Shown piece after piece: positions 28,917 through 44,260 of a stretch of DNA of 64,000 nt; position 1 is the stretch's first letter, and the number at the start of each line of letters is the position of its first letter. The translations under genes were made by a program, and so were the position numbers. Origin of the DNA: Natribaculum luteum (GTDB lineage Archaea; Halobacteriota; Halobacteria; Halobacteriales; Natrialbaceae). The notes under the pieces were generated by a model. The model did no database searches. It was not told the origin of the DNA and worked only from the letters and a program-made list of their open reading frames with translations. The stretch covers positions 558,001-622,000 of the forward strand of contig NZ_CP095397.1 in NCBI RefSeq assembly GCF_023008545.1. Reading direction: 5' to 3'.

Positions 28917-29022
28917 ATACTACTGGACAACAGTCAGTGACTACTCGATCGCGTCTCGACGGCTGTCGTCAGGACAGCGTCTCGAGTGCGATCGATGGCT
29001 GAACCGTGTTGTCCGGCAGTAT
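28917..29022. repeat. 106-bp imperfect palindrome, family B copy 3
   Basis: The ends are ATACTACTGGACAACA and TGTTGTCCGGCAGTAT, with a central GGCTGTCGTC-AGGACAGC hairpin. The interior is the reverse complement of copies 1 and 2. The right end overlaps the last base of the TGA stop codon of the HFX_2341-type gene on the minus strand. Confidence 0.85.
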
Positions 29023-29933
29023 CACTCCTCGCGTCGGTCCGAGTCCGCGTCGGAGTGTGCCCGCACCCACAACTCGCCGATCCTCGAGAGTCGGGTCCGG
29101 TACGATTTCCCGTGTTCTTCGCGCTCGATGTACCCCTTCCCGCCCGGTCCGAGTCGGTCGACGTTGTAGATGACCTTCGAGCGGAAGCTGTCGGTGTACT
29201 CCTCGTTGAGTTCGCGTGCGAGCGCCTCGGCGAGTTCCGAGACGGAGTCGAACTCGCCGTCCTCGCCGAGTTTGTACAGGATGAGTTCCTCGAAGGGCTT
29301 GACGTTCGAGAAGGAGGCGACGGGCAGTTCGACGATGTGGTCGCCGTCGATCTCCTTCGCGCCGATCGTGGTCCCGCGCTCGTCGAACTCCGCGAGCAAC
29401 CCGCGGGCGCTCTCGAGTCGGTCCTCGATCCGGTCGTCGGCGACTGCCCCCTCCTCGAGCAGGTCCTCGAGTAGCGCCGCCCCATCGCGCAGTTCCTCGG
29501 CGAGCTCCGTCTCGAGGTACTTCTCGGGGGCGGTGTAGTAGGTGTGGATCTGCTCGCGGTCCTCCTGGCGCTCGACCATCAGCGAGTGGGCGGCGTTCGC
29601 AAAGGCGAAACTGACGGTCCGGGGCATCGCGGCGACGTTCACCCAGACTTCGTTTCCCCGGTCGAGTTCGGCGTTGATCAGGTCGTAGGCCTGCTCGAAC
29701 GCCCCGTCGTAGTCGTAGACGTCCTCGAGGACGAACCGTTCGGTCGCCGCCCCCAGCAGGTTCCGAAAGTCCGTCTCGAGCTTTCGCGAGAGGTGACGGG
29801 AGTACTCGACGTTGGCCTCGCTGCCGACCGCCCCCTCGAGGAGGACGACGCGGTCGACGTCGATCTGATCGCGCACGAGGGGGGCGATCAGCCGGTCGTA
29901 GTCGAACCCGACCGGGACGATGTGGGTCTGCAT
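29022..29933 (-). CDS. HFX_2341-type regulator: CARF-like sensor with winged helix; 5' end replaced by the integrative element
   Basis: The 303-residue protein begins MQTHIVPVGFDYDRLIAPL. Residues 1 to about 140 look like a Rossmann/CARF-like fold, with VWVNVAAMPRTVSFAFANAA at the ligand loop. Residues about 210-300 form a winged helix (FEELILYKL...VSELAEALARELNE...SKVIYNVDRL...YIEREEHGKSYRTRLSRIG). It resembles haloarchaeal HFX_2341-type (DUF6293-like) transcription regulators. The first 19 codons and the promoter lie on the element side of attL, so the gene is now a host/element chimera. ATG 29933 is supported by TTTATATAAA 22-31 nt upstream. The stop overlaps family B repeat copy 3. Confidence 0.8.
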   Translation of the reverse strand: MQTHIVPVGFDYDRLIAPLVRDQIDVDRVVLLEGAVGSEANVEYSRHLSRKLETDFRNLLGAATERFVLEDVYDYDGAFEQAYDLINAELDRGNEVWVNVAAMPRTVSFAFANAAHSLMVERQEDREQIHTYYTAPEKYLETELAEELRDGAALLEDLLEEGAVADDRIEDRLESARGLLAEFDERGTTIGAKEIDGDHIVELPVASFSNVKPFEELILYKLGEDGEFDSVSELAEALARELNEEYTDSFRSKVIYNVDRLGPGGKGYIEREEHGKSYRTRLSRIGELWVRAHSDADSDRREE

Positions 29934-29937
29934 ACGC
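29884..29937 (-). other. attL: 54-bp attachment repeat covering the 5' end of the HFX_2341-type gene
   Basis: It matches 44040-44093 at 49 of 54 positions, including an uninterrupted 20-base block CCGACCGGGACGATGTGGGT. All five differences fall at third codon positions of the minus-strand reading frame (for example CAG/CAA, GGG/GGC, CTG/CTC) and none changes the peptide MQTHIVPVGFDYDRLIAPL. The match ends 4 nt upstream of the start codon. Confidence 0.85.
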
Positions 29938-29954
29938 GGGACAACGGGCTGGCG

Positions 29955-29964
29955 TTTATATAAA
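29955..29964 (-). promoter_or_regulatory. Strong TATA box supplied by the element
   Basis: TTTATATAAA is centred about 27 nt upstream of ATG 29933, the ideal position for a leaderless haloarchaeal message. It lies outside the att repeat, so it belongs to the element. In the circular form the same promoter would point through attP into the integrase gene. Confidence 0.6.
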
Positions 29965-30208
29965 GCACCAGTTTCGATACCGTTGTTATGCACATCACCG
30001 ATGTTTGCCGCCGCGCCCTCGTGGGCTTTCGTGAAAACGTAGGGGCTGTGGCTCCTTCAGTTCTTTCCTGATGTTGGGATGAATAGCGGGAGTTGCGTAT
30101 TCAGCGTGGATTTTTCGGTGGAAACGGCTATCGCTGATTTCCGACAGCGTGTGAATAACTGGTCTTCGCTATCGTTATCGTGAAAACCGCGAGTGTCCAT
30201 CTACTCTT

Positions 30209-30583
30209 ATGCTCGATGGTCTTCCCGACCGCCCACTCTTCGAGTCGGAGTTAGCGGCGTTCACCGAGAGCGAAGCGATACGGTTCGCGTTCCCTGCGAC
30301 ACCCGAGAGCATGGACACCGACGACGATGGTCGAAGGCGTATCTACGACCTGTTGTTGTTCCTTCCCGTGTCGGTCGCCGTTCTTGCTTACGAGGGCGAC
30401 GGTGAGGGGTGGACAGTCGTCGCCAATGAATCCGGGGACGAACCATATCGCGCGGCGATTGACGCTCTCATTGAACACAGGGACTACGAACTCGAAGAGG
30501 AAGGTGCTGTCCGCGAGTTGGTCGAAAAGTTCTACGGGGTGACAGAGGAACACCTCGGAATCGGAGACGGTGCCAACGGGTAG
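30209..30583 (+). CDS. Hypothetical protein of the integrative element
   Basis: This 124-residue acidic protein (MLDGLPDRPLFESELAAFTESEAIRFAF...) has one moderately hydrophobic stretch, IYDLLLFLPVSVAVLAYEG, too short and polar-flanked for a confident membrane helix, and a helical acidic C-terminus. I recognise no family. It is the first gene inside attL and is read away from it. Composition is lower in GC than the host, like the next gene. Confidence 0.55.
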   Translation: MLDGLPDRPLFESELAAFTESEAIRFAFPATPESMDTDDDGRRRIYDLLLFLPVSVAVLAYEGDGEGWTVVANESGDEPYRAAIDALIEHRDYELEEEGAVRELVEKFYGVTEEHLGIGDGANG

Positions 30584-30646
30584 CACTCGGCGATTTTCTC
30601 CCACCGACCCGCATGATTTTACGCCTGCTATGTCCTATCCACGCCT

Positions 30647-31636
30647 ATGACCTTCGGCTCTACGTGGCAGAATCTCATTGAGAACGTCGAAGAACTCCCA
30701 TCGGACGCGACACTCGTCACACCACTCTCGCGCAAAGCCTTCCGCGTGACCGACGTACAGGAACCTCGTATCTTGATTCAGTACCGGGACGACGACGAGA
30801 CGATACCTCTACAACGCGACCAGTTCGAGACGCTTCACCGCCGTATCCAAGACGCACATGGCGAGTTCGAGTTAGACCGACTCCCACCGGACGCCGAACC
30901 CTATGCGACAGTGCTGTCCTTACATCCGCGTTTCGAGGTAGACGACCGAGAGGGAACGCTGACCGAGAGCGAGACGCCGACAGGCTCGCCGCTGGTGGAC
31001 GCGACCGAAGCCACCGACGACGGCGACGAAGAGCGGGAAGAGCCGGATGTGGACGTGTATGCGGACGCTCTGTTGCTGATTGACGCCCTCGAACGCCACG
31101 ACGTGACCACACTCGAAGACGTAGAGACGCCCGCTCTGGTGAACCTCTACACTCTGCTGTCGGACGTACAGCGCAATGCCAACGACCTACGCCAAGACGT
31201 GCGGGCTGTCCTTCTCGACAGACTACACCACGACCAGCCGGTGAGCGGTCAGTTCGGGTCGGTACAGCGAACCTCGCGCCGGAACCGGTCGCTCAAAGAC
31301 GATGAACTGGTGTTGAACGCCTTTGAGGCCGTAGGTATCGAACGAGAACGACTGACCACGGTGGATTCGAGTATGGTAGACGAAGCGCTTGAAGTCACGG
31401 AACTGTCCGAGAGCGACGTGTACGACGTGCAAGAGTCCGAGTACGTCCGGAAGGCCGACGTGGACGAAGACGAGAAGGAGACGCGCCTACAGGGACTCAA
31501 AGACCAACTCGCGGCCACCGAAGGCGAGGAAGCCGACGCACTCCGTGAGGAAATCGAAGAACTCGAAGACCGGATTGACGAACTGACCGAGTTCCGAAGC
31601 GGTCGGTCGTTCCACACGTCTGCTGGTGGGCAGTAA
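30647..31636 (+). CDS. Hypothetical acidic protein with C-terminal coiled coil
   Basis: The 329-residue protein has an N-terminal compact region with a PLSRKAFRVTDV...ILIQYRDDDETIPLQRDQFETLHRRI pattern (residues 25-70). An acidic linker covers about 100-135, a helical middle 140-210, and a coiled coil the end (KETRLQGLKDQLAATEGEEADALREEIEELEDRIDEL). No catalytic motif or membrane helix is visible and I do not recognise the family. The gap of 63 nt from the preceding gene suggests a common transcript. Confidence 0.6.
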   Translation: MTFGSTWQNLIENVEELPSDATLVTPLSRKAFRVTDVQEPRILIQYRDDDETIPLQRDQFETLHRRIQDAHGEFELDRLPPDAEPYATVLSLHPRFEVDDREGTLTESETPTGSPLVDATEATDDGDEEREEPDVDVYADALLLIDALERHDVTTLEDVETPALVNLYTLLSDVQRNANDLRQDVRAVLLDRLHHDQPVSGQFGSVQRTSRRNRSLKDDELVLNAFEAVGIERERLTTVDSSMVDEALEVTELSESDVYDVQESEYVRKADVDEDEKETRLQGLKDQLAATEGEEADALREEIEELEDRIDELTEFRSGRSFHTSAGGQ

Positions 31637-31666
31637 CGCGTCGGTTCAAATGTCGAAAAGGGGGCG

Positions 31667-32158
31667 TCAGAACCCGGTCGAAACCTCTACCTCGTAGGTG
31701 TCGATACGGCTTGCGTCCTGCCCGGTGAACATACAGTCGAACTCCCACTCACGCCCACCAGCAAGGTCGCTCACGTTGTCGAGTCCTTCACCTATCTGCG
31801 TACCTTCCGAGTCGAGAAACGTCGCGGTCGCCTCGACGTAGCCGATTTCACTGTCGGTATTGTTGACGGCGGTGCCACGGACGCCCGACGAGAACTCTTC
31901 CTCGTAGAACTCGTGGTTCAGGATTTCCACGTCGGGCTGGTCGTTGCCACCACCGTCTCCGCTGTTCTCGTCGTTGCTGTTTCCACTGTTACTGTCGCCG
32001 CCACTGTTGTCCGAGTTACCGTTACTGCTGTCGCCGCTGTTGTCGTTCGCGTCTCCGCCACCGGAGTCTCCCGAGTCACTTTCTGAACAGCCCGCGAGGG
32101 CGAGAGCGCTGGCGGTCGTTCCGAGCGTTACGAGGTATCGTCTCCGATTCAGTTCCAT
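31667..32158 (-). CDS. Secreted lipoprotein with Ser/Asn/Gly-rich linker and FxLYD-like domain
   Basis: The 163-residue protein starts MELNRRRYLVTLGTTASALALAGCSESD, a twin-arginine signal followed by the lipobox LAGC, so it should be exported folded and lipid-anchored at Cys23. Residues about 25-75 are a low-complexity D/S/G/N linker. Residues about 77-163 (VEILNHEFYEEEFSSGVRGTAVNNTDSEIGYVEATATFLDSEGTQIGEG) match the FxLYD-type beta domain. The role is unknown. It is divergent from the winged-helix gene and shares the operator region at 32204-32235. Confidence 0.78.
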   Translation of the reverse strand: MELNRRRYLVTLGTTASALALAGCSESDSGDSGGGDANDNSGDSSNGNSDNSGGDSNSGNSNDENSGDGGGNDQPDVEILNHEFYEEEFSSGVRGTAVNNTDSEIGYVEATATFLDSEGTQIGEGLDNVSDLAGGREWEFDCMFTGQDASRIDTYEVEVSTGF

Positions 32159-32203
32159 TGCAATATGGCAATTAAGCGGCAACTACTTATATCGTTCTCA
32201 TAG

Positions 32204-32235
32204 TCACGCTACGTGACCTATATCACGATTCGTGG
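32204..32235. promoter_or_regulatory. Two palindromic operator sites around a TATA box
   Basis: TCACG-CTA-CGTGA (32204-32216) is a perfect palindrome and TCACG-ATT-CGTG (32223-32234) is nearly the same motif, 19 nt further on. Between them CTATAT (32218-32223) is a good TATA box for the rightward winged-helix gene. Binding here would block that promoter and probably the leftward lipoprotein promoter (GATATAAG at about 32188-32195, minus strand), as expected for an autoregulated repressor. Confidence 0.6.
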
Positions 32236-32267
32236 GTGCTATCGCCTAACGACGCTATATTCCGGCA

Positions 32268-32534
32268 ATGCGCCTTTCGGCGGAATGGACGACCCTTGCG
32301 GACGAGCGTATCTTGGAATATCTACGGGAGAACAAGAGCGGGACGCCGACAAAAATGGCGAACCACGAGAATATCCATTTCTCGCGGTCGTATCTATCCA
32401 AGCGGTGCAAGGTGCTGGTAGACCACGGGCTAATCGAGGACTACGGTAACGCGGTGTTCGTTCTCACCGACGAGGGAGAAGCGTACCTCACTGGCGAACT
32501 GAATCTTAACGAACTCGAACCCGACGAAGAGTAA
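32268..32534 (+). CDS. Winged-helix repressor, phiH1 repressor-like
   Basis: The 88-residue protein reads MRLSAEWTTLADERILEYLRENKSGTPTKMANHENIHFSRSYLSKRCKVLVDHGLIEDYGNAVFVLTDEGEAYLTGELNLNELE. The order 'W.T..DERILE.L...G..tp..iA......S..YvS.R...L...GLi...G.g.Y.LTd.G..YL.GeLD' is characteristic of haloarchaeal phiH1 repressor-like regulators, common on viruses and integrative elements. Two palindromes flanking its TATA box suggest autorepression and control of the element's lysogeny-like state. Confidence 0.8.
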   Translation: MRLSAEWTTLADERILEYLRENKSGTPTKMANHENIHFSRSYLSKRCKVLVDHGLIEDYGNAVFVLTDEGEAYLTGELNLNELEPDEE

Positions 32535-32878
32535 CGCCGGTCGTTCCCTAAACCGGAACGAGAAGCGTTCTGCCCCGCCTTTCGATGGTGGCCGTGCCAC
32601 CAGCAAGCCGAGAGACGGCGTGAGTTGTGCGTGAGTGCGGTCGAAGCGCGACCGAGTAGATTGGACCGTCGTTTCTAACAGCCGTTCTGCGGCTCTGTGC
32701 GGCTGTGTGAGCGTGTTCTAATTCCCCAAAGTAATCTTGAACTACTTATTAATGCCCAAGAATAATAAGATTATGGAACGTAGGATATAGTAGGTACACT
32801 GCCTCTCCGGGGCTATTTCGACAAAAGCCCGCCTGTTAGAGCAGGCAGGCAGTGGCCTTCTGAAGGTGCCAGAAAGCC
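32535..32878. other. 344-bp gap with promoter-like and hairpin sequences
   Basis: No gene is seen. An AT-rich stretch at about 32725-32775 (CTACTTATTAATGCCC) may be a promoter for the SWIM gene. A strong hairpin GCCCGCCTG-TTAGAG-CAGGCAGGC at 32827-32851 lies 28 nt before its ATG, in what would be the 5' leader, and could modulate its translation. Confidence 0.4.
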
Positions 32879-33304
32879 ATGTCCAAATCCGTTATCGAGA
32901 CTCTTGACGCTAACGAACAGGTAGAGAAACGAGCGCAATGGGAAGCCTTCGAGTTCACCGTCCACGGTGACGGCGACGTAGAAATGGTCAACGACTCCCA
33001 CGCGGACGCCGACGACCACACCTACACCGTCCACGTCGAGGGCGGAATCCCATCGGACTGTGAATGTCCTGCGTGGGAATACCAGCCCGGTGCGTGCAAG
33101 CACATGGTTGCGGTAGCGATTCGAGAGCCGGTTCTCGAAGCGGCCAGCCGGGAACAGCCCGTCCGTGCTGACGGTGGTGTCACCCTCGCGGAGTTCACTA
33201 CCGAGGACGACGACGAAGGCGGGTGCTGGTGTGACGACCACTCATTCCCGTGCTTCGGGTGCTACAACGACGGTCGGCGCGACCTGCCGGGTGAGGACGA
33301 ATGA
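32879..33304 (+). CDS. SWIM zinc-finger protein
   Basis: The 141-residue protein has the SWIM motif C-x-C-x9-C-x-H as CECPAWEYQPGACKH (residues 61-75), which binds zinc and often mediates DNA or protein contacts. A second cysteine cluster lies near the C-terminus (CWCDDHSFPCFGC, residues 116-128). Similar small SWIM proteins occur widely on haloarchaeal plasmids and integrative elements, with unknown role. Its TGA stop overlaps the ATG of the next gene (ATGA), so the two are translationally coupled. Confidence 0.8.
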   Translation: MSKSVIETLDANEQVEKRAQWEAFEFTVHGDGDVEMVNDSHADADDHTYTVHVEGGIPSDCECPAWEYQPGACKHMVAVAIREPVLEAASREQPVRADGGVTLAEFTTEDDDEGGCWCDDHSFPCFGCYNDGRRDLPGEDE

Positions 33305-33573
33305 CCCGACCGTCCCCGGCGGCGGCGCTGAACGGCGTACAGGTGGGTAACATCTGTGACCGGTGTAATAGGGGTATCAGAACGGGCGACAAAGCCGTAG
33401 TCTACGCGACCTACTACGACTCCGATGGGTGGGTCGTCCGGCGGGTGATGTGCGATTGCGGAAGCAGAACTATCGGACTGCCGACTGACGGTGCCGACGA
33501 GGTGATTGTCGAAGCCGTGTACTGGCGTGGTCGGCTCGTCGGCGTCAATACCGTGTGCCGGAGTCGGCCCTGA
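33301..33573 (+). CDS. Small zinc-binding protein coupled to the SWIM gene
   Basis: This 90-residue protein contains NICDRCNRGIRTGDKAV near residue 18 and VMCDCGSRTIGL near residue 50, four cysteines that could hold one zinc. The first ATG overlaps the SWIM stop by 4 nt. Comparable pairs of a SWIM gene and a short cysteine protein occur on haloarchaeal mobile elements, which suggests a joint function. No catalytic site is visible. Confidence 0.65.
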   Translation: MTRPSPAAALNGVQVGNICDRCNRGIRTGDKAVVYATYYDSDGWVVRRVMCDCGSRTIGLPTDGADEVIVEAVYWRGRLVGVNTVCRSRP

Positions 33574-33609
33574 CCAGCGTAGGAATTTTCAACCAGATGG
33601 GCCTCTCTT

Positions 33610-34731
33610 ATGCTAATGTCTCGCCTTATCTACCATTCCGAGGGTGGTTATGCCCGTGCTGAATCGTCATTCGACAGAGCGATACGAGAAACAGCCGACG
33701 CCGAAAGCGTTCGGGTTGTCTGTCCGTACATCAGCCCAAGTTATCTGAAAACCGTCCTTGACCCTGCTGACGAGTGGCGGATTGTGACGGACGTGGAAGC
33801 GTGGATTGGAACGTTCGGTGGCAGTACGAGGGACGTGATACACGAGTTGATAGCGACGAACCGCGAGCGGATTCACCACTTCCCCGATGTTCACGCGAAG
33901 GCCGTCCTATCCGATGATTCGGCTGTCGTCGGCTCGGCCAACCTCACGGAGAAGGGCGTGGTCGGTCGGACAGAGATGGGGGTTCGGTTCACCGACGGCG
34001 CGAAGGTAGATGAACTGAACAGGTGGTTCACCCGACTCTGGTCTGAAAGTGGCCCCGTCGATAGCGAGGAATTGGACGAGTTCGTGGAATCGTCGCCCTC
34101 GACACCAACGACTCATGCCGGGTCTGGTACCTCGCTTTCCTCTGACGCCCCACGAGTGAGCGCGACCTTCGTAGACGATACCGAACCTACCACTGAAGAC
34201 GTTGACGCCAACGAAGAGGCACACGAGACGCTGGTACAACGCGTTCAACAAGCCCCGAGCCGAGAATGGGCGACTGACTTCTTCGACCTGCTGAACGACC
34301 TGATAGCCGCGACTGGCCTTGCTGAAGACGACGCACGGCTGGTCACGTCCATCGCCCAAAGCGACCGAATCGCAGTGTCCATCAACAATCGCTACGTCTT
34401 CGGTGCGTTCTTTTCAGGCGAACCGACGACCGGGTTCATCGTCGGTGCCGACACCGAGAACGTAGACGAACTAATTGAGACTGCCGACGAACACATGGCG
34501 TTCAATGCCCTTTCTGGCGAAGCCACCGACGATACCCCCCATTGGGTCGAGTTCACCGAAGAGCCGGAACGAATGGTGTCACAGTCATTCCGTCGAGCGT
34601 GGATTAGCGCGGTCTACAGCGAGTTAGAGCGTGCGAGTGGGTCGCCATATCAGGACTCGCATGAGCCACTTGTTCACCGGGTGGCAGTTGATAAAAAGTA
34701 TCGAAATAAGGTGCTTCAAGAATCATTTTAA
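33610..34731 (+). CDS. PLD-family phosphodiesterase-like protein (single HKD motif)
   Basis: The 373-residue protein has an N-terminal phospholipase D-like domain with one motif, H95-x-K97...S109-x-N111 (HAKAVLSDDSAVVGSANLTEKG). This matches the nuclease branch of the family, where two chains form one active site. Residues about 150-210 are a Ser/Thr/Glu linker, and the C-terminal 170 residues are an unrecognised alpha/beta region. Standalone PLD proteins on mobile elements are frequently defence nucleases. It converges with the propeller-Mrr gene, stops 40 bp apart. GC falls noticeably in the last 100 nt. Confidence 0.75.
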   Translation: MLMSRLIYHSEGGYARAESSFDRAIRETADAESVRVVCPYISPSYLKTVLDPADEWRIVTDVEAWIGTFGGSTRDVIHELIATNRERIHHFPDVHAKAVLSDDSAVVGSANLTEKGVVGRTEMGVRFTDGAKVDELNRWFTRLWSESGPVDSEELDEFVESSPSTPTTHAGSGTSLSSDAPRVSATFVDDTEPTTEDVDANEEAHETLVQRVQQAPSREWATDFFDLLNDLIAATGLAEDDARLVTSIAQSDRIAVSINNRYVFGAFFSGEPTTGFIVGADTENVDELIETADEHMAFNALSGEATDDTPHWVEFTEEPERMVSQSFRRAWISAVYSELERASGSPYQDSHEPLVHRVAVDKKYRNKVLQESF

Positions 34732-34770
34732 ACCCAATTAGAACTGACAAAATCCAACTAAAACCCACAT

Positions 34771-37533
34771 TTAGTCTCTCGGCGGTTGGATATAGGAATC
34801 AGTAAGCATTTCTAATAACCCCTGTTGGCCAATCAACTTCATTCTCTCTCCATATGACTGTGCTTCTTGGACAGCATTCTTTGTGAACGTGCTACTGGTC
34901 ACAATAACTGAATGAGTGGCATTCCCTTTTGCTAAAGGACTTGCCATTTCCCTAACAGTCGATGGGGTGACTTTACTCTTGCCGGGTGTATACTGCTTAA
35001 CCTGAATTGCTACGATTTCATCGCCATTTTTAGCATATACATCAACACCCTCGTCTCCACTCTTGGAAGATACTTGAGTCGAATACCCGTAGTTCTCCCA
35101 CAATTGAGCCACGAGTCTTTCAAACTGGTAGGGTGAATACTCAAACAAATCATTAGGTTCCCAGACCGTGTTAGAAATACGCTCTATTCGATTGTTCAAC
35201 TCTCTTATTATTTCGGGGTCGCCTTCGGTGATTGCGGATTGTATTTTCTCTTGAGCCTCGCTCTCCACAATATCAGTTTGACTTATGTCAACGCTTCGTA
35301 GGAAATCCCGGATATTCTTGACTCGGTCACGGAGACGCTGATGTTTTTCAACTTCTTGCCTAATCTCACCAATAGCGATTGAATCAGGCGTAGATTCTAA
35401 TTCTTGGATTATCTTATTCTTTGTCGCTTCGGTTGGGACTCTCCTGTTCCATTGTTGGATTTTATTCAACTCGATAGAGCAACTACGTAGTTCTCGAATT
35501 TTATTTGTATGTTCGATAGCGGAATCAGGCTTCGTATACGGGTCTGTCCTTTCTATAGCGGTATAAAAATGACTTTTAGAGACAATTCCGGAATCATCCT
35601 CAATATCGTCCAGTAATTTCTCTTTTTTCTCGATGCCATCTACTATCTTTTTTGACTTCTTTATTTCCGATTCATAACTACCTATCTGCAAGAAGTCACT
35701 CTGTTGAACGTCCTCAATTGTGTTCTTGAGTGGGTTCTCATACTCACCATTACCCACAGATTCTAACCTATTTTCAATTTCTCTATATTTATCATTTATC
35801 TTTGATATGCTCTCTAAACTATTGGTCACACTATTAATTTCCTCTTCAGCCTGCTCAATAGAATCATAGTTACTCGGGTCTACTGTTCTGATTCCATTAG
35901 ATAGTGATTCAGTCTCTCCCGGATACGAATTGAATATGTCTTCAGACCTCGAAATTAAATCCCGATATTCCTGTTTGACCTTATGCCACTTGTACCTATC
36001 AAATCCTTTTTTACTACCAACTATTGAGGCAATCCCTGTACTGCTGACAACGGTACCCGTGATTATATCATCCGCAGTTTCTATTTTGTTTATAGACTTT
36101 CTGGCAAGTCGTTCAGATTCTTCGTACTTGGCCTGATTGTACGCCTGTTCGGCTCTACGAAGTAGGTCATCTCGACCAAGAAAGTTTGAGACAGAACGTT
36201 TTACTCCAAAGTATCCTCGTGCTTGTTTAGCCCGTTGTATCAACGTGTAGGCTCTTGACCCTTTAGGCCCAAAGGCGTGGACGACCCCTTTATTGTCAGT
36301 AACAAACAAATATTCACCAGCAATGACTGGCGAAGATGAAATTGGCGTACCAACGTCATATTGCCAGCGTGTTCCCCCATTCTGCTTATTCAATGCATAG
36401 ACATTCCCGTTTTTAGAGCCTATAAATACAGTATTATCGTATACGATAGGGGACGAAATCAACTCTCGCAGTCCTTGTTTTTCCCACTGAACCCCACCTT
36501 GCTCTGTATCGAGAGCATAGAGAGTGCCACTTTCATCACCGCTAACTCCAATATATAGCGAATCTGAATCTACAGCAGGTGAAGATACTATCCAAGAATT
36601 GTACTGTTCGGGATTTTTCATCCACTCTATATTCCCGGAATCTGAATCAACACTAACGATATTTCCACTATCATCCCCGAAATATATTGAACCATTCTTT
36701 ATTGCTGGCGAGGAAATGATACGGTCTACTTCCCTATTTTCCCAGACCGTTCTGGCCCCACCCTCATTTATTTCAAATTTCCCAATGCCTTCGTCAATAG
36801 GGGCATACAAGTATTCAGAATCATGGGCGGGAGTGGAAGTAGCACTGAAAAGTCCTGAAGAAGCAGAAGGTACTATTGAAAAGGATTTTTCGCCGGTCTC
36901 TGAATCGTAGGCATGATAGCCAGTTCCATCCTCATCACTACCGCCGATAATCACAAACCCAGAACCATCTGATTGTATATACTTTGGCGAACTCTCTTTG
37001 CTATTATCGGGATTATCGCCTTCAGTCCAACTCACGGTGCCGGAAGAAGATTGGATTTTTATTGTTGCCGCATATTGATTTGTTGAACCAACGTAGAGTG
37101 AGTCTCTCCATACTACGGACGAAGAGAATAATCTTCCATACGACTCCATATCATATTCCCAAATTTCTCTTCCGGTTGTTGCGTCTAACGCAAATACACC
37201 CCCTTGATACACGGGTGCATAAACAGTCCCGCCAACGACTGATGGTGACGGAGTGATAACCCGGTGATATGTATACCCTTCTTCGTATTCATTTGGGTTA
37301 TCTATCTTACTACCACCGTCAAACGACCATGCCAACTCAAGAGGGAAATCCGAAGGCCCTACGTCCGACGATTTGACCCCTGTATTCTGTTTGTTCCCTC
37401 TAAATTCGGGCCAGTCCGACGCAAGCGAAGGGCCGGACAGTTCATTGCTTCGTTGTGCTGGCGAAATATCAGCAAGCGATACTCCAGAGGCGAATAACCC
37501 CAAAATAGACCTTCGAGAGAAACCCTCTGGCAT
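34771..37533 (-). CDS. Tat-exported PQQ-type propeller, membrane helix and Mrr-type nuclease in one chain
   Basis: This 920-residue protein starts MPEGFSRRSILGLFASG, with a twin-arginine-like signal. Residues about 38-425 hold roughly eight PQQ-type blades (for example VYAPVYQGGVFALDATTGREIWEY, IYFGDDSGNIVSVDSDSGNIEW, VFIGSKNGNVYALNKQNGGTRWQY). A helical stretch follows. Residues 489-506 (DIITGTVVSSTGIASIVG) could cross the membrane, with KKGFDRYKWHKVK behind it as the inside-facing side. Residues 515-790 are coiled coil. Residues about 798-908 are an Mrr-type nuclease with catalytic D831 and Q844-x-K846 (GVDVYAKNGDEIVAIQVKQY). It is the most AT-rich gene in the window. ATG 37533 is preferred over TTG 37587. 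Confidence 0.8.
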   Translation of the reverse strand: MPEGFSRRSILGLFASGVSLADISPAQRSNELSGPSLASDWPEFRGNKQNTGVKSSDVGPSDFPLELAWSFDGGSKIDNPNEYEEGYTYHRVITPSPSVVGGTVYAPVYQGGVFALDATTGREIWEYDMESYGRLFSSSVVWRDSLYVGSTNQYAATIKIQSSSGTVSWTEGDNPDNSKESSPKYIQSDGSGFVIIGGSDEDGTGYHAYDSETGEKSFSIVPSASSGLFSATSTPAHDSEYLYAPIDEGIGKFEINEGGARTVWENREVDRIISSPAIKNGSIYFGDDSGNIVSVDSDSGNIEWMKNPEQYNSWIVSSPAVDSDSLYIGVSGDESGTLYALDTEQGGVQWEKQGLRELISSPIVYDNTVFIGSKNGNVYALNKQNGGTRWQYDVGTPISSSPVIAGEYLFVTDNKGVVHAFGPKGSRAYTLIQRAKQARGYFGVKRSVSNFLGRDDLLRRAEQAYNQAKYEESERLARKSINKIETADDIITGTVVSSTGIASIVGSKKGFDRYKWHKVKQEYRDLISRSEDIFNSYPGETESLSNGIRTVDPSNYDSIEQAEEEINSVTNSLESISKINDKYREIENRLESVGNGEYENPLKNTIEDVQQSDFLQIGSYESEIKKSKKIVDGIEKKEKLLDDIEDDSGIVSKSHFYTAIERTDPYTKPDSAIEHTNKIRELRSCSIELNKIQQWNRRVPTEATKNKIIQELESTPDSIAIGEIRQEVEKHQRLRDRVKNIRDFLRSVDISQTDIVESEAQEKIQSAITEGDPEIIRELNNRIERISNTVWEPNDLFEYSPYQFERLVAQLWENYGYSTQVSSKSGDEGVDVYAKNGDEIVAIQVKQYTPGKSKVTPSTVREMASPLAKGNATHSVIVTSSTFTKNAVQEAQSYGERMKLIGQQGLLEMLTDSYIQPPRD

Positions 37534-37809
37534 TGGTATATAACTAACTTCGGACGGAGCGATATGATATTTATGACTGATTAGCAAGTCAACCTCAAAT
37601 AGGGTGTATGTGTGATTCCAATAGCCCTATCAGAGAACTCTATACGCTCGTGTGAAGCCTTGAGGTACGCCTGTGCGACCGTTTTTGTGTTCCGAGAAAG
37701 TAGGTGAACCAACCACACGACACGCACCGCTATTCGTTCGGTTGCGAGAAAGAGGGAAGGGTCGTCCGGCCAAGGTCGTCCTTCCCCTGTCGTGGAAGAG
37801 GCTACGACA

Positions 37810-39606
37810 ATGCAAAGTAGGAACGCTATCAGTAAGAATCCACCGTATCGGCCACCCACCTTGGACGGCGTTCGACGCCGCGTGGAACGAGCAATCAGAG
37901 GAATCTACAATGGACACGAGAACGTGCTACTCGAAGCCCTGCCGGTCGCAGGGAAATCCTATTCGGCCCTGAAAATCGCCAGCAAGAACGAGACGCCGTT
38001 GCTCTACCTCGCGTCCCGAGACTATCTGAAGCGGGACGCTGAAGAGTTGTGCGACACGTTTGGACTCACTTACAAGCGGATTCCCACTCCGTACAAGCAC
38101 TGCCCTGCCTTCGATAGGAGCGACCAAGACCATTACGACGGTCGGGCAGTGAAATCATATGAGAACGGCGTTGGTGGTCGGGAAATCCATGAGCGACTTG
38201 ACGACATACGGTGCGGCGGGGACTGTGGGTATCTTGACCTGCTTGACTTCGACCCGTCGGTACCAGACGTTCTAATTGGCGACCCGAGCCATGCCTACCG
38301 AGACGAGTACTTGAAGGGACGATTCGTGGTGAAAGACGAGTTCTCGGTGGGTGAGTTTGAAACCGAGTTCGAGAACCCGGAACAGGTCGTTGACTGCTTC
38401 CTTCAGCACGTCACCCTACGCTACGACAGTTATCAGGACGTACTGAACGCAAAGCCCGACAGCGACAGGTATGCCGACGCCCTCGATTGGTTCCGAGAAC
38501 ACGGCCTCTATCAGGACACCAGCAACGTTCTCAAATCTCCGAACGAAGAGTACCATGCACTCGCCCCAACCCTGACATTCGCGCTACTGGCCGGGCATGA
38601 GTTAGGGAATGAGTGGGAACGGCTACCTGTCTCGGATTGGGCTGACTTGCATGGTATCGACGCCTCGGGTATCAACTCGAACGCCATCTGCGTGCGCGAC
38701 CGAGACGAAGATACGATGTACCTTCTCAATCCACCGAACTTCGATATTGGCGACGGCTTCCTCGGTTTAGACGGGACTCCGACGCCCGCGATGTGGCGAA
38801 TAGCGACCGGCCTTGACCTTACGCACCGAGACGTTCTCGAAGACCGTGAGAAGCGAAAGTACGTCTCGGACGTGCTGAACCAGACCATCATTCGGACAAA
38901 TGACGACCTAAAGCCATACCAGAACGACGCAGAGGGGCGTATTACGGCTCCGAAAGACACCCAAATCGCGCATTGGATACACCGGAAAGAAGGCGAGAAG
39001 CCCGGTCTAATCACCAGCAAGAAAGCGATTGACAACGTGTATCCGGAGTACAACGACGGTGAGTTGTTCAACCACGTTGGCACCTCTCGGAACTTCAGCA
39101 ACGTCTTGAGTTACCAAGGCTTCGCGGACAAGCACCTCGGGTTCGTCTCCGGCTCTCGACACTACGGCGACCCCTACATCAAGAAATGGGGTGCGTATGC
39201 CGGAGAAGTCGTCACATCGAACGGTAAGCGGGGGACAGCGAAGAGTTACGGCGAGTTCGGCAACAAGATTCACCGACATATGAGGCGGCAGACGCTTCAG
39301 GACGTGCTTCGGTTCGGACGAGATACCAAACCTACGACGGTCTACGTGAACACGGCGGCGCTTCCCGAATGGGTGCCGAGCGAAGCGGCACACCTCGTTC
39401 TGTTCAGCGAAGACGCCCGAGAGGTAGCCGAGTATCTTCAGGAAAGGGGTGGCGAAGGTGGTCAAGTGAGTGAAATCGAAAATGGGACGAAAGTTAACGA
39501 GCGAAGCGCCCGGAAGAAGGCCGAAGCGCTCGCAGAGAACGGATTCGTGACCAAGTACGACGACCTTCCCGACGCGGCGGCGTATGTGTGGAACGACGCA
39601 GAATAA
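37810..39606 (+). CDS. SF2 helicase-like replication protein of the element
   Basis: The 598-residue protein has a degenerate Walker A, ALPVAGKS (residues 43-50), then PLLYLASRDYL (motif Ia type), KDEFSVG (DE box type), FLGLDGTPTP (like the DATPT motif III), and near the end QDVLRFGRD, a QxxxRxGR-type motif VI. A C-terminal helix-turn-helix-like region follows (EIENGTKVNERSARKKAEALAENGFVTKY). The pattern fits plasmid or virus replication helicases of haloarchaea, although I cannot name the family. The large dyad 190 bp downstream could be its origin. ATG 37810 is preferred over GTG 37792. Confidence 0.65.
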   Translation: MQSRNAISKNPPYRPPTLDGVRRRVERAIRGIYNGHENVLLEALPVAGKSYSALKIASKNETPLLYLASRDYLKRDAEELCDTFGLTYKRIPTPYKHCPAFDRSDQDHYDGRAVKSYENGVGGREIHERLDDIRCGGDCGYLDLLDFDPSVPDVLIGDPSHAYRDEYLKGRFVVKDEFSVGEFETEFENPEQVVDCFLQHVTLRYDSYQDVLNAKPDSDRYADALDWFREHGLYQDTSNVLKSPNEEYHALAPTLTFALLAGHELGNEWERLPVSDWADLHGIDASGINSNAICVRDRDEDTMYLLNPPNFDIGDGFLGLDGTPTPAMWRIATGLDLTHRDVLEDREKRKYVSDVLNQTIIRTNDDLKPYQNDAEGRITAPKDTQIAHWIHRKEGEKPGLITSKKAIDNVYPEYNDGELFNHVGTSRNFSNVLSYQGFADKHLGFVSGSRHYGDPYIKKWGAYAGEVVTSNGKRGTAKSYGEFGNKIHRHMRRQTLQDVLRFGRDTKPTTVYVNTAALPEWVPSEAAHLVLFSEDAREVAEYLQERGGEGGQVSEIENGTKVNERSARKKAEALAENGFVTKYDDLPDAAAYVWNDAE

Positions 39607-39794
39607 CCCACAGTGATAACCGTATCAGAATATATTATCGCGTCCGAACAGCCCTACTCATAGTTGTTATTAGAGGGTGCGTTCGACCCTGTTAATAGAA
39701 GTGGGTGTTAGGATTACCAAGAGTTATTCGACGGTAGCGACTCTCGGATTGAGGTGTCGGAGTCCCTTCGACGCTGGTGAGCGAAGTATCCCGT

Positions 39795-39881
39795 GTCATT
39801 CCAAGTCAGGGGATGAATCAAACCTCGAATCTTCTGTGAGAGTTTGATTCTCTCTGCGGTTATTCCCCATTTCGGAATGAC
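39795..39881. repeat. 87-bp nested inverted repeat
   Basis: GTCATTCC (39795-39802) pairs with GGAATGAC (39874-39881), GGGG (about 39809-39812) with CCCC (39865-39868), and GAATCAAAC (39815-39823) with GTTTGATTC (39842-39850), leaving an 18-nt loop. It is neither family A nor B. Confidence 0.75.
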
Positions 39882-40085
39882 CCCCGAAACAGGAGAAAAC
39901 CGGGTTTAAATACTTCTAACAGTGTTTTAGACGGCGTGAGTGGGTCGTACCACCACTCTACGAACGTGTGGGCCTGTCTCTGGTGGGGCCAGCCCGACTC
40001 GTCCACTTGCCTACACACTCGCACAGCAGAGACAGGCACCAGCAGAGCGCACAGAGAGGCAGGGGTGTGGTGAGGATACCCCTGA

Positions 40086-40192
40086 CGGGCCGGGTGGATT
40101 GGTGGGGGTACGAGAGGCCGGGGGGACTGGCCCCGGTGGGGGTCGGTCGGGCCGGGACAGTCGGGGGCAGGGGCAGGGGTTCGAGAGGGGTG
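40086..40192 (+). other. G-rich tract with repeated runs of three or more G
   Basis: About 100 nt of the plus strand hold a dozen runs of three to six G with few C (for example GGTGGGGGTACGAGAGGCC, GTCGGGGGCAGGGGCAGGGG). G-strings accompany several haloarchaeal replication origins, and the tract could also fold as G-quadruplexes. Confidence 0.5.
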
Positions 40193-40503
40193 GTGATTTT
40201 CTCTGAAGCCCTCTCCGGCTCTCTCGATGTTGCATTTTCGAGGGTGAATCGAGCGCGTTCGTGCCGCTCTACTGGCCCCGTGTCGGTCGTGAGCGTCGTC
40301 CCTGTCGGCGCGAGTCATGCGTCGGCGTCGTGTCTCAAACCCGAGAGTAGTGAACTGGTGGCCGAGAGAGGGCGAGATTCCGGTGGTCGCCACCCCTGTT
40401 TTGTCGCAGTGAACATGACCACGCTGGGATAAATTTTATAACTATCGCGCATTTCAACTCTTTCCCTGATTCGGCGGTCTACAATGGGACGAGCAACACG
40501 CTG

Positions 40504-40623
40504 ATGGTCGGAACGTCCCACAAAACTAACATTATCTGTCCTATCTGTGGTAGCGAAGTCAAGGGGGACACGGACACCTACCCTAACTTCGTCTGTAAGG
40601 ACGGCGACCATGACATACTATGA
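40504..40623 (+). CDS. 39-residue zinc-ribbon-like protein
   Basis: The product MVGTSHKTNIICPICGSEVKGDTDTYPNFVCKDGDHDIL has CPICG and a later Cys/His pair (C31, H36), enough for one zinc site. An AT-rich word AAATTTTATAAC at about 40434-40445 is a suitable TATA box for a short-leader message. It is probably a small regulatory or nucleic-acid-binding protein of the element. Confidence 0.5.
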   Translation: MVGTSHKTNIICPICGSEVKGDTDTYPNFVCKDGDHDIL

Positions 40624-40673
40624 CCAGTCTACCGTAGAAAGAACTATTTGTAGGGACTGCTGGCGTGGCTATC

Positions 40674-40841
40674 ATGGTTGGCGTCGTCAGTGTTGTCTAC
40701 CGGTGGGCAATCCGCTATGACCCCGGCGGCCCCTTCTTGGATGTTCTCTCGGCAGTTGGTGCGACCGGTGCTGTTGCACTGGCCCTTCTCGGCGGTGGTC
40801 TGCTGGTCGCAATCAGTTGGTTAGTCGCACAACTTCAATAG
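40674..40841 (+). CDS. 55-residue single-pass or two-pass membrane protein
   Basis: The product MVGVVSVVYRWAIRYDPGGPFLDVLSAVGATGAVALALLGGGLLVAISWLVAQLQ has one clear membrane segment of about 28 residues at the end. No family is recognised. It lies 50 nt after the small zinc protein and may share its message. Confidence 0.45.
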   Translation: MVGVVSVVYRWAIRYDPGGPFLDVLSAVGATGAVALALLGGGLLVAISWLVAQLQ

Positions 40842-41034
40842 ACGACATAGAAGTTTTGTGTACCCTCAACCAAATCTCTCTTCATCAGCGTATGCTGTAC
40901 TCAATTCTCCCCAAATAGTCATTTTGCCACTCCCCGAGGAAGTCTGAACTCGAACACGACCGATAGTTATGGGATTGCCTTCATCGACATCTCGCTCAAT
41001 AGCCTTCTCATCAACAGCGTCCCAAATTATAGAT

Positions 41035-41978
41035 CGCTCATCTCGATAAGTCGTAACATCAATTTTCCTTACTCTCCAAGTGTCTTCCAAGATGGACGAG
41101 AAGTCTGCGCAAGTGTTCCTTCCACCACGTGAGCGGTGCTTTGAACGTCTCCGTCTCGCCCGCTTCGGCGAGACGGTGACGTGTGTCCATTGCGAGAGTG
41201 ACGACGTTGTCAAGCGCGGAACAACCGGAAAAGACGCCCAGCAGTACTGGTGCAAGGGGTGTGAGACGTACTTCAACGACCTCACAAACACGATCTTCGG
41301 CCAACATCGCTTCGAACTGGAAGAGATGTTCTATATCGTCAAGGAGATGCGATCTGAGCCGACCGCTCAGATCGCTCGTGACCTTGGCCGAGACTACGAA
41401 GCTGTTCTCAACTTCGTTCACAAAGTCCAGGATGTGAGCGGGGAGATCGATGAATTTGAGCTGTACGATGTCTGTGAAGCTGACGAGATCTACGTAACAG
41501 CTGGTGAGAAAGGGATCGAAGACGAGGATCAGAGTCCGCGCAAGCGCGGACTCAAAAAAAGGGACGAGGACGATTCGAATCAGACAAACCACCGGTGTTG
41601 ACACTCGTCCGTCGGGATGACGGACGAGTTCGGTTTCTCGTCTGCAAGGATCTCCAAGACGCCGACGAAGACATCGCTGAATACGGTGATGGAAGCGTCA
41701 TCCTCTGTACCGATGATTACACAATCTACGACGAGATCGAGGAGAAGGAGGGGGTGGACGGCCATCTGGCCGTCACCCACTCCGACACCTACGTCATCGG
41801 CGATGCCCACACGAACACCTGTGAGAACCGCCACAGCTTCCTTCGCCAGTGGCTGGCGAAGTTCAGAGGTGTCTCAAAACATCATCTCCAACGGTATCTC
41901 AATTTCCTTGAACTGAAACTCAATGAACCAGATAGCTGGTTCGAGAAACTCCTATGTTACAATGTATCGGGATGAGCG
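41035..41978 (+). mobile_element. IS1595-type insertion sequence (944 bp) with target duplication
   Basis: The ends are inverted repeats: CGCTCATCTCGATA on the left and CGCTCATCCCGATA read inward on the right, followed by GTAACAT on both sides after a 4-5 nt mismatch. The direct repeat ATTATAGAT (41026-41034 and 41979-41987) is the target duplication, 8 or 9 bp, since the last base is ambiguous. It carries one frameshifted transposase. Confidence 0.85.
41092..41975 (+). pseudogene. IS1595/ISXO2-like transposase, frameshifted
   Basis: The first part (from ATG 41092, or GTG 41080) has a zinc ribbon CVHCESDD...QYWCKGC and the first catalytic Asp in CEADEIYV. The second part contains the DDE region LCTDDYTIYDEI...YVIGDAHTNTCENRHSFLRQWLAKFRGVSKHHLQRYL. 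The frame breaks at the run of seven A followed by GGG (41554-41563). One extra G there would restore KKRGRGRFESDKPPVLTLV. A -1 slip at this run could also join the two parts, so limited activity cannot be excluded. Confidence 0.8.
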
Positions 41979-42339
41979 ATTATAGATTTGACTTCTTCCT
42001 CGGGGCCGCCTTCAGGTATCCCCATGTGGTTTTCATCATCTGTGAAAGAGAGCGTTGTCTCACTCTCATATACAAAGAAGACAACATCTTGTTCTGTATT
42101 GAACTCATACCCTGACGCCTCATCAGGCAGAGGCACCTTTAGTTGGATTGGGTTGGTATCTATGGGGTCTGGCATAGGGTCATTGAGCATACATGACCGA
42201 ATACACGGCAGACATATAATCGTTCATCACAGCCAAATCAGAATTGGGGGTAGTACTGAATGTGACCGAGAATGTAAAAGCATAGTTCAGTTTCACCACA
42301 CGGCTGACTCCTATACCTCGCACACCGGATGAACAAGAT

Positions 42340-42780
42340 ATGGCAGACCCTTCAGCGGCTCTCGGCCCACTCTCGAAGTTGGTAGACGGTGCGTCCGACT
42401 ACTACGAGTTTTGGAAGGACTACAAAGGTGAGGAAATCCTGATTCGGACGCACTCGGTAGCAGTTGGGGGCGACTCTGGTGACAGGGGAAACATCCGGCA
42501 AAACTCATACGTGATTCGGGGAACTGTTTCAGACGTTACATCTTTTCCACCGGGATTTCTGCTTGAGGATGTTGAAGAGTACGTTGAATTGAGTGACGCG
42601 AGGTTGATGTGGGGCGCGGGGCCGGAACCAATTGACGCTGTTGAGGGTAACAGGGGAAAGCAAACGCTTCGAGAGATAGATGAAAAGTATGTCTCCTTCA
42701 ACGCGATTGAAGAGTTAGAACGTGCCGAAGCCGCTGATTCGGCAACAGAGCCTTTCAGAGAAGACGAAGAAGGAGATTAG
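42340..42780 (+). CDS. Hypothetical protein of the element
   Basis: The 146-residue protein MADPSAALGPLSKLVDGASDYYEFWKDYKGEEILIRTHSVAVGGDSGDRGNIRQNSYVIRGTVSDVTSFPPGFLLEDVEEYVELSDARLMW... probably forms a small beta-barrel-like domain (EEILIRTHSV...YVIRGTVSDV...FLLEDVEEYVEL) and has an acidic tail. The stretch resembles Sm/LSm- or OB-type small barrels only in a general way; I assign no family. It lies between the IS-split gene and the integrase. Confidence 0.55.
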   Translation: MADPSAALGPLSKLVDGASDYYEFWKDYKGEEILIRTHSVAVGGDSGDRGNIRQNSYVIRGTVSDVTSFPPGFLLEDVEEYVELSDARLMWGAGPEPIDAVEGNRGKQTLREIDEKYVSFNAIEELERAEAADSATEPFREDEEGD

Positions 42781-42792
42781 CACTCGTACTCG

Positions 42793-42939
42793 TCAGTCGA
42801 TAAGGCGCTTCTGCGCCCGGATTAGGTTGCGCTTCTGGTCGTCCAACTCTTCGTCGTCGTCCATGTCCTCTTCGACCATCGCCACGGCGTCGTCTTCGCT
42901 CTCGGGGATTCGGACAGGTGGGTTCTTGTCGTCGCTCAT
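42793..42939 (-). CDS. 48-residue acidic protein downstream of the integrase
   Basis: The product MSDDKNPPVRIPESEDDAVAMVEEDMDDDEELDDQKRNLIRAQKRLID has an acidic middle and a basic C-terminal helix. It starts 43 nt after the integrase stop, on the same strand, and probably shares the integrase message. Small proteins in this position can be directionality factors, but this one has no clear helix-turn-helix. Confidence 0.5.
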   Translation of the reverse strand: MSDDKNPPVRIPESEDDAVAMVEEDMDDDEELDDQKRNLIRAQKRLID

Positions 42940-42981
42940 ACCAGTTCAATCAGGCGCAAAGCGTGAATCACTTTGGGTGGC

Positions 42982-43998
42982 TTACACCCCTTCGAGGTAG
43001 CCACGACGTTGTTCGACCTTCACCTCCTCGTCCCGCCGGTCGTAGTGTGCTTCAAGCACCTCACGAGAGACGTTCATCCTGTCGGACACCACGTCCACCG
43101 GCACATCTTCGGTCAAGTGGTGGGTAATCGCACCACGACGCCACGCGTGGGGACTCCGAGACGAGGGACAGACTGACGGGGCTTTCTCCGGTGGGTTCAG
43201 TGCTTGGCAGGTGTCGGTGTCCCGACTGTGGGGACAATGCCCGCCGTTGTACTGACAGGGGTGCGTCCACCGATAGCAGGTTTCTCGAATGGTTGATTTC
43301 GAGACGCGCCCGAACTGCGTAGTCAGTAGCGGCTCCCGTCCCCGCTCGTCGGTCACGTCTTCGCGGTTGTGGTCGATGTAGTCATTCAGGACTTGGCACA
43401 CGTCGGAACTCAAGGCGATTAGCCGCTCGCCCTTCTCCTTGTTCTTCAGGGGCGTCTCGGGTCGGTGCTTTGCGCGGAGCCACTGGTTCTCTCGGTCGTA
43501 GTCTCGCAGGTCGAACGACCGGACAGTCCCCGACCGCGCCCCACAGCGCCACAACAAGGTCAAGAGCGCGTGCTGTAGTGACGCGTACTCGAACCGCGCG
43601 AGGTGGTCGAGTATGTCCGTCGCGGCGTCGGGGGCAAGTAACACGTCGCGCTCTCGGTCGCCATCGTTCAGCGAAGGCGAGAGAACCTTGTTGTGTAGGT
43701 CTTGCTTGACGGCGTCGATGGACTCGCACCATTTCACAAACGCCCGCAGAGCGTCGAGTTGGCCCTTGAGGGAAACGCTGTTCAGGTCTTGAGCGCGGTA
43801 CTGCTTGAATCGAAGCAGGTCACGCCCCGAGAGCGAGTTCAGGTTCTCTACGTCTTCCGCTTCGCACCACTCTACGAACTTTTCGAGTTTGTAGCGGTAA
43901 GAGTCGATGGTGGCGTCGGCTAATTCGTTCTGACGGTCACGCAGGTAGAGGCGAACTGCCTCGTCCGGAGCGATGGGTTCGAGCGTGGTTTCGGGCAT
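42982..43998 (-). CDS. Tyrosine recombinase (integrase) of the element
   Basis: The 338-residue protein has an N-terminal SAM-like core-binding domain (residues 1-100: VRLYLRDRQNELADATIDSYRYKLEKFVEWCE) and a catalytic domain with R155 (RCGARSGTV), a lysine in the KNKEKGERLI beta-hairpin, H284-x-x-R287 (HAWRRGAI) and nucleophile Y319 (EAHYDRR). A Cys/His-rich insertion (C241, C248, H254, C255, H257, C264) precedes the HxxR box, as in many haloarchaeal integrases, and may bind zinc. It lies 42 nt inside attR and is read away from it. In the integrated state the former host promoter lies directly upstream. Confidence 0.92.
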   Translation of the reverse strand: MPETTLEPIAPDEAVRLYLRDRQNELADATIDSYRYKLEKFVEWCEAEDVENLNSLSGRDLLRFKQYRAQDLNSVSLKGQLDALRAFVKWCESIDAVKQDLHNKVLSPSLNDGDRERDVLLAPDAATDILDHLARFEYASLQHALLTLLWRCGARSGTVRSFDLRDYDRENQWLRAKHRPETPLKNKEKGERLIALSSDVCQVLNDYIDHNREDVTDERGREPLLTTQFGRVSKSTIRETCYRWTHPCQYNGGHCPHSRDTDTCQALNPPEKAPSVCPSSRSPHAWRRGAITHHLTEDVPVDVVSDRMNVSREVLEAHYDRRDEEVKVEQRRGYLEGV

Positions 43999-44039
43999 TG
44001 GTGAACATCTCTGAAAGCCCGACAGAGGCCGCGAGCGGC

Positions 44040-44093
44040 GCGATGAGCCGGTCGTAGTCGAAGCCGACCGGGACGATGTGGGTTTGCATACGC
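44040..44093 (-). other. attR: second 54-bp attachment repeat
   Basis: It encodes the same start MQTHIVPVGFDYDRLIAPL as attL on the minus strand and then diverges (AASVG...), reaching a stop within about 30 codons, so it is an orphan 5' end. It marks the right boundary of the element and retains the host's former upstream sequence on its right side. Confidence 0.85.
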
Positions 44094-44110
44094 TATACTT
44101 CGGCGGCGTC

Positions 44111-44118
44111 TTTATCAA
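44111..44118 (-). promoter_or_regulatory. Former host promoter of the HFX_2341-type gene (TATA-like)
   Basis: TTGATAAA on the minus strand lies about 25 nt upstream of the orphan ATG at 44089. It is weaker than the element's TTTATATAAA. After integration it points through attR towards the integrase gene at 43998. Confidence 0.45.
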
Positions 44119-44260
44119 TCCCCTCAAGTAGGGTAGCGTTCAGTTGTAGATTTCGTTTGTTTGTATCTTCTCCATCACAGGATTCACGAGAATCGTCACA
44201 CGCTCCCGTCGTTTTCGGTGCCAAACAATTAAGAGACCACAGCAGGTATCTGCAGACGAG

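Follow-up and report, generated by a model that had tools for sequence, protein, structure and literature searches.

A conserved non-coding block behind different replication-type genes of haloarchaeal integrative elements, possibly a replication or maintenance control region

Introduction

Does the gene-free DNA behind the helicase gene of a haloarchaeal integrative element serve the replication of that element, and which part of it is conserved among relatives? The question is raised by a 64-kb stretch (C1:558001-622000; here, the window) of the 4.6-Mb genome of Natribaculum luteum, with low GC at about 30-45 kb. A sequence-only reading proposed a replication origin of the usual haloarchaeal kind at 39607-40503, made of a nested dyad, an AT-rich word and a G-rich tract. 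In the portions of two papers drawn on here (PMC3936714, PMC3528665), haloarchaeal origins are described with G-strings that end the Orc1/Cdc6-binding ORBs, beside an orc1/cdc6 gene.

Results

The integrative element and its relatives

Positions 29876-44093 are a 14.2-kb site-specific integrative element: terminal direct repeats and a tyrosine integrase gene (Table 1) were found, together with an unoccupied site elsewhere. At that site, in the same-genus genome G208, the gene body, the att sequence and the native upstream DNA are continuous; some 395 bp of that genome's own DNA lie about 50 bp further upstream. The gene bearing attL belongs to family NF051475 (above cut-off).

Sixteen loci, from 14 haloarchaeal genomes, were followed for the non-coding block described below. 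They count as about 15 independent ones, L096 and L097 having nearly the same sequence in the block. L101 (G473) has a weak profile match (22 bits) and was kept because palindrome P1 and a neighbouring gene of the 127-aa type are present. Of the 16 locus stretches, several not spanning the whole element, 7 have terminal direct repeats (32-67 bp). Their targets are an HFX_2341-type gene (three) or overlap tRNA genes by coordinates (four: Phe, two; Ser; Pro). An integrase of the window's family was found in 9/16 loci, and a diverged one, itself part of the profile used, in L069.

Cargo was scanned with ten proteins from six loci, one protein giving no match. The matches are type I restriction-modification (RM) subunits and a weak DarG-like match (L067), type IIG-like (L061), type II RM/PglX-like (L069), HEC-06/Orf5-like (L060), HEC-05-like (L101), and an Mrr-type nuclease with a weak DrmC-like protein (window). 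The block is kept across elements with differing cargo, and it is also present where no integrase of the window's family was found. RM-carrying integrase islands of Halorubrum ezzemoulense (PMC11078007) are alike in their integrase, deviating G+C and some RM genes. In the part of that text drawn on, a conserved non-coding block or replicase slot is not mentioned and the word 'noncoding' is absent.

Several features of the window element are recorded in passing. The nuclease is the C-terminal Mrr-type domain of a 938-aa protein (34771-37587) that also carries PQQ-type beta-propeller repeats. The protein has a counterpart of 98% identity in Halorientalis persicus and is possibly a defence protein with a sensor-like propeller. 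To the right of the block (41080-41975) lies an IS1595-type transposase split into two frames. At this place seven aligned relatives encode a conserved protein of about 127 aa (weak HTH and HNH matches), which is missing from the window.

An HFX_2341-family regulator gene (29022-30010 and 44032-44140) has received the element at its start codon; the elements L062 and L065 use the same target. At its left end the element brings a promoter-like TTTATATAAA that closely resembles the sequence upstream of the gene in genome G416; the DNA natively upstream, seen in G208, now lies at the right end. According to the portion of PMC11434293 cited here, HFX_2341 represses cas genes when over-expressed; the element may therefore set the level of a CRISPR regulator.

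The helicase upstream of the gap

No family was found for the 604-aa product of 37792-39606 in Pfam, NCBIfam or PHROG at the thresholds used. Its AlphaFold model (pLDDT 88, pTM 0.83) has the predicted fold of an XPD/DinG helicase: the best Foldseek match is XPD (3crv, E 1.6e-11), and VIA-align with 6nmi chain B gives Z 20.6 (rmsd 4.5, 444 aligned). XPD/DinG helicases have a four-cysteine iron-sulphur site; against these four, three cysteines (104, 141, 145) are invariant in an alignment of 26 sequences. The claim that this is the only replication-like gene holds within the recognised proteins of the element; outside it, a DnaG-like frame was recognised from its translation at 49705-51021.

Matches of the helicase were found in 104/392 genomes of the order. 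Several homologues form part of longer frames (about 1,200 aa) whose contigs measure 8.9-10.8 kb; one of them, L017, has a DNAG_N match below the family cut-off. The block adjoins three helicase places at at least 89% identity, plus a weak relative (the 670-aa protein of G304:C21); at the other helicase places no core-profile match was found nearby. The dyad had been expected beside homologous helicases if the region were an origin; it is absent beside most of the distant homologues and not beside the close ones (at least 89% identity).

Anatomy of the block

The helicase gene stops at 39606, and the long frames in the gap behind it are mechanical. Homologues of the gap are related as DNA, with indels of many lengths, and their translated matches contain stops. 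A conserved protein in the gap was considered and rejected, the frames from the translated search carrying stops and indels. The 0.9-kb region is gene-free, as had been proposed.

Table 1. Features of the window element and of its non-coding block (positions in the window)
Feature	Position	Strand	Remarks
attL, 62-bp direct repeat	29876..29937	none	spans the start codon and first codons of the HFX_2341-family gene
XPD/DinG-like superfamily 2 helicase, 604 aa	37792..39606	+	predicted from AlphaFold model, Foldseek, VIA-align
Palindrome P1, copy 1	39797..39815	none	CATTCC-N7-GGGATG
Inner inverted repeat between P1 copies	39816..39849	none	AATCAAAC/GTTTGATT
Palindrome P1, copy 2	39861..39879	none	TATTCC-N7-GGAATG; 64 bp from copy 1
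TATA-like word TTTAAATA	39905..39912	+	at this place in the window element only (1/16 loci)
Palindrome P2	39915..39931	none	TCTAA-N7-TTAGA
Palindrome P3	39946..39962	none	CGTAC-N7-CTACG; family form CGTAG-N7-CTACG
Best-conserved core of the block	39970..40108	+	region of sequence model R1
G-rich tract	40095..40195 (about)	+	strand-biased G runs, 16/16 loci
Region B, second conserved non-coding segment	40230..40500	none	DNA and translated comparisons of relatives
Tyrosine integrase, next to the right repeat	42982..43998	-	family matches; mechanical frame extends to 44127
attR, second copy of the 62-bp repeat	44032..44093	none	92% identical to attL

The three sequence features named in the earlier reading are all present. 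The 87-bp nested dyad (39795-39881) has perfect 8-bp outer arms (GTCATTCC...GGAATGAC) and a perfect inner repeat (starting at 39816 and 39842). As single-stranded DNA, it folds better than 200/200 dinucleotide shuffles on each strand (z -3.2 and -3.6). The nested form alone is weak evidence, because the window has others like it: counts of nested pairs of 8-bp repeats (within 90 bp) are 14 for the 64 kb and on average 2.25 for 20 mononucleotide shuffles. In the general repeat search of the window (shortest arm reported, 12) the dyad was not among the repeats, and no strong iterons were found. The dyad consists of two copies of a 19-bp palindrome, P1 (CATTCC-N7-GGAATG), whose outer arms can also pair mutually. 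The inner repeat is AAAC/GTTT in the window, and arms that are C-rich/G-rich by eye occupy the same place in several other loci; a hairpin may be kept there across loci.

The AT-rich word TTTAAATACTT (39905-39915) is the single match in 64 kb (at most 1 mismatch; 0.05 expected; a match in 5/100 shuffles). As an AT-rich opening element it was rejected, being found in 1/16 loci. The G-rich tract includes the G-run maximum within 24001-50000: segments of 120 bp starting at 40061-40101 contain 7 runs of at least 4 G.

A palindrome with the N7 spacing of P1 (CGTTCC-N7-GGAACG, 32542-32560) lies directly behind a winged-helix gene near the left end of the element; similar sites were seen in L067, L069 and L096.

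Conservation across the family

By sequence comparison, the conserved unit is a family-wide non-coding block of about 0.6 kb rather than a dyad linked to the helicase. A DNA search with 39607-40503 gave matches in 20/392 genomes, 11 of them strong (own genome included); the other nine (31-62 bp, E 1e-4 to 1e-3) were excluded from membership. A sequence-only profile of the core matched 12/392 genomes, and family-wide searches, which overlap this set, matched 7/125, 5/146 and 1/28 genomes.

At least one P1 copy (at least 10 of 12 letters) was found 120-300 bp upstream of the core in 12/16 loci; at the same threshold it is missing in L063, L066, L096 and L097. By mononucleotide shuffling, 12.9 matches of such quality are expected by chance across all 361 kb. 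Two copies are present in 5/16 loci, 103 bp (L062), 63 bp (L060, L101) or 64 bp (L064, window) apart. Conservation of the dyad in related elements is found for P1 as such, the paired form being restricted to these five. P2 is kept in 9/16 loci (at least 9 of 10 letters; the L061 copy displaced by about 10 bp) and absent in 7; P3 is kept in 11/16 (at least 8 of 10 letters) and absent in 5. In all 16 loci one strand is G-rich: G4+ runs number 5-10 and C4+ runs 0-3. In L065 and L070 the last third of the block has given way to an insert that contains a small reading frame; the frame is on the minus strand and 82% identical between the two loci over 76 residues.

The block might be a relic or recombination hot-spot, that is, a flank for swapping cargo and replicase modules that has no other function. 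Mosaic matches among related elements, the different modules found at the same edge and the insert at two loci agree with this. It is very improbable: specific palindromes are kept, with a spacing of 63-64 bp in four loci, while the neighbouring sequence has diverged.

No DNA match was found in phage or plasmid records, and no relative of the helicase, integrase or 127-aa protein was confirmed in IMG/VR. Eleven pattern matches in IMG/VR were dropped, the sequence model not bearing them out. In the open-access literature no paper describing the block was found, as judged by title or abstract start.

The position upstream of the block

In 8/16 loci the core is preceded by a replication-type gene of the same orientation, which stops no more than about 0.5 kb away from it. 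These genes are of three unrelated kinds at one position. Directly upstream, four loci (window, L060, L061, L003) have the 604-aa helicase and two (L063, L065) a 670-aa P-loop protein, whose L063 version aligns weakly with the helicase (23% over about 220 residues); L064 has a P4/D5 primase-helicase and L070 a Prim-Pol. In the remaining 8/16 loci no replicase was recognised directly upstream, part of the frames of the replicase-less elements having been scanned against Pfam and the contig of L068 starting about 1.5 kb upstream of the core. Searches by tblastn with four replicases, which covered the replicase-less loci except L097, found no replicase relics. Co-inheritance of the block with a single Rep family was not observed, the neighbour being one of three unrelated kinds of replicase or none recognised. 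Because half of the loci lack a recognised upstream replicase, the block cannot rely on a single Rep protein.

Where other elements have the replicase, four of these loci (L062, L066, L068, L069) share about 1 kb of conserved non-coding DNA (66-78% pairwise identity). A DNA search with this stretch matched 9/384 genomes. The four strong matches (query's own included) are these same loci; the other five (G020, G225, G335, G350, G363) are short and were inspected and not counted. The stretch carries many hairpin-like boxes. A CCCCTATAGTCCCCTTTC-like box recurs in four other genomes; in L113 and L116 it lies behind a frame resembling, by eye, a tyrosine integrase.

Folding of the block and of the 1-kb stretch

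The block could be the gene of a structured non-coding RNA, the 1-kb stretch being part of the same RNA or a second RNA. This is unlikely, although a long conserved non-coding sequence is compatible with it and some counts of paired columns are raised. In 11 loci (L003, L066 and L096 dropped), 189 helix stacks were found against 80-142 in 12 column shuffles, and 20 stacks with at least two covarying pairs against 8-18. Read as RNA in the same number of loci (8 shuffles), there are 67 stacks on the plus strand (26.9+-10.9 in shuffles) and 37 on the minus strand (22.6+-5.8). Such counts are inflated by G and C runs. RNAalifold (12 loci) predicted 27 pairs, 6 of them changed on both sides, with an unfavourable covariation term (+0.62). 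No 120-column consensus fold is better than z -1.4 on either strand (14 loci; z is defined for 8/12 alignment windows per strand, the others having zero energy).

Single sequences fold weakly as well. The z scores for the window are -0.91 and -0.55. Over 15 loci (controls between -0.47 and 0.50) they are mild on both strands, about -1.1 to -1.2 in the P1-P3 part, where foldability is about equal on both strands, as for DNA palindromes. In the G-tract part the mean z is -0.52 (plus) against -1.30 (minus), the C-rich strand folding somewhat better. The 1-kb stretch has local conserved hairpins and some minus-strand segments with z -3 to -5.9; z below -2 was obtained for 2/35 segments on the plus and 5/35 on the minus strand, and the extreme values (-11 and -7) belong to segments with tiny energies. 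In Rfam no family reached the gathering score, matches below it being at chance level or none. The restriction of the TATA-like word to one locus also speaks against an RNA gene.

Phages and mobile elements encode large non-coding RNAs such as GOLLD and ROOL. Like them, the block is long, conserved and non-coding and lies in a mobile element; unlike them, it has no demonstrated conserved fold and no Rfam match.

Comparison with known origins

An Orc1/Cdc6-type origin was rejected: there is no orc1/cdc6 in the window and no ORB-like site in the dyad or G tract. The 22 matches of orc1/cdc6 (TIGR02928) in the genome include none within C1:558001-622000. The sequence TTCCANTGGAAAC is taken here to be the ORB core; ORBs of other origin families differ, and a variant is possible. 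With at most 3 mismatches it has 28 matches in the window against 25 expected; the only one in 39607-40503 (40477-40489, 3 mismatches) lies outside the dyad and the G tract. On these grounds the block is not filed under the usual haloarchaeal origins. Of the proposal of an origin of that type, the place directly behind a replication-type gene is retained for 8/16 loci and the type is not.

Compared with origins of the oriC1 type, the block is alike in being non-coding, with G-rich runs and inverted repeats beside a replication gene. It is unlike them in that the window has no orc1/cdc6, the dyad and G tract have no ORB-like repeat, the TATA-like word is not conserved and a helicase or primase gene, or none that was recognised, stands beside it. 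With the origins of plasmid and phage replicons that use a P4/D5 primase-helicase the block shares, in one member, a P4-family primase-helicase directly upstream; unlike in such replicons, the same block follows unrelated replicases or none, and strong iterons were not found. The minimum of the cumulative GC skew was also tried as an origin mark and rejected, lying at most 1 kb upstream of the block (block left out) in only 3/7 delimited elements.

Discussion

The preferred reading, held tentatively and at somewhat less than an even chance, is that the block is a cis-acting replication or maintenance control region of haloarchaeal integrative elements, probably an origin. A link to replication is likely because the block lies directly behind replication-type genes of three unrelated kinds in 8/16 loci. 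A DNA control region is favoured because unrelated replicases occupy one place and because the P1 pairs, with their repeated spacing, stand beside a G-rich strand. What weakens the origin reading most is the half of the loci in which no replicase was recognised directly upstream.

Another cis-acting site, such as the operator or promoter of a regulator, a partition site, or a site of helper-driven transfer or packaging, is rather unlikely. It would account for a block that is kept irrespective of the replicase and even in loci lacking a recognised integrase of the window's family, for the paired palindromes, and for the P1-like palindromes that several elements have near their left end (in the window at 32542-32560, after the winged-helix gene). 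It would leave unexplained the repeated place behind replication genes. Partition, relaxase and terminase genes were not noticed in an unsystematic look at the proteins scanned, and the lack of confirmed IMG/VR relatives and of phage or plasmid DNA matches also speaks against this reading.

Under the control-region reading, a dimeric protein encoded by the element or by the host would bind the P1 palindromes, about six helical turns apart, and perhaps also P2 and P3. The adjacent G-rich strand would favour local opening, through a G-quadruplex or, if transcribed rightwards, an R-loop. After excision of the element, the exchangeable upstream replicase (DinG/XPD-like helicase, D5 primase-helicase or Prim-Pol) would extend or prime from this site.

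It is quite improbable that the 1-kb non-coding module replaces the replicase, as an RNA-primed R-loop origin or a large functional RNA acting on the G-rich block. If it did, these replicons would be maintained without a Rep protein of their own, an unusual kind of archaeal replicon, and the block would mark a replicase slot in a new family of defence-carrying elements.

If the block is a control region, elements that move restriction and defence genes among haloarchaea would share one conserved and testable maintenance locus. Its cis site would stay while the replicase is exchanged or missing, the opposite of the usual tight pairing of Rep and ori.
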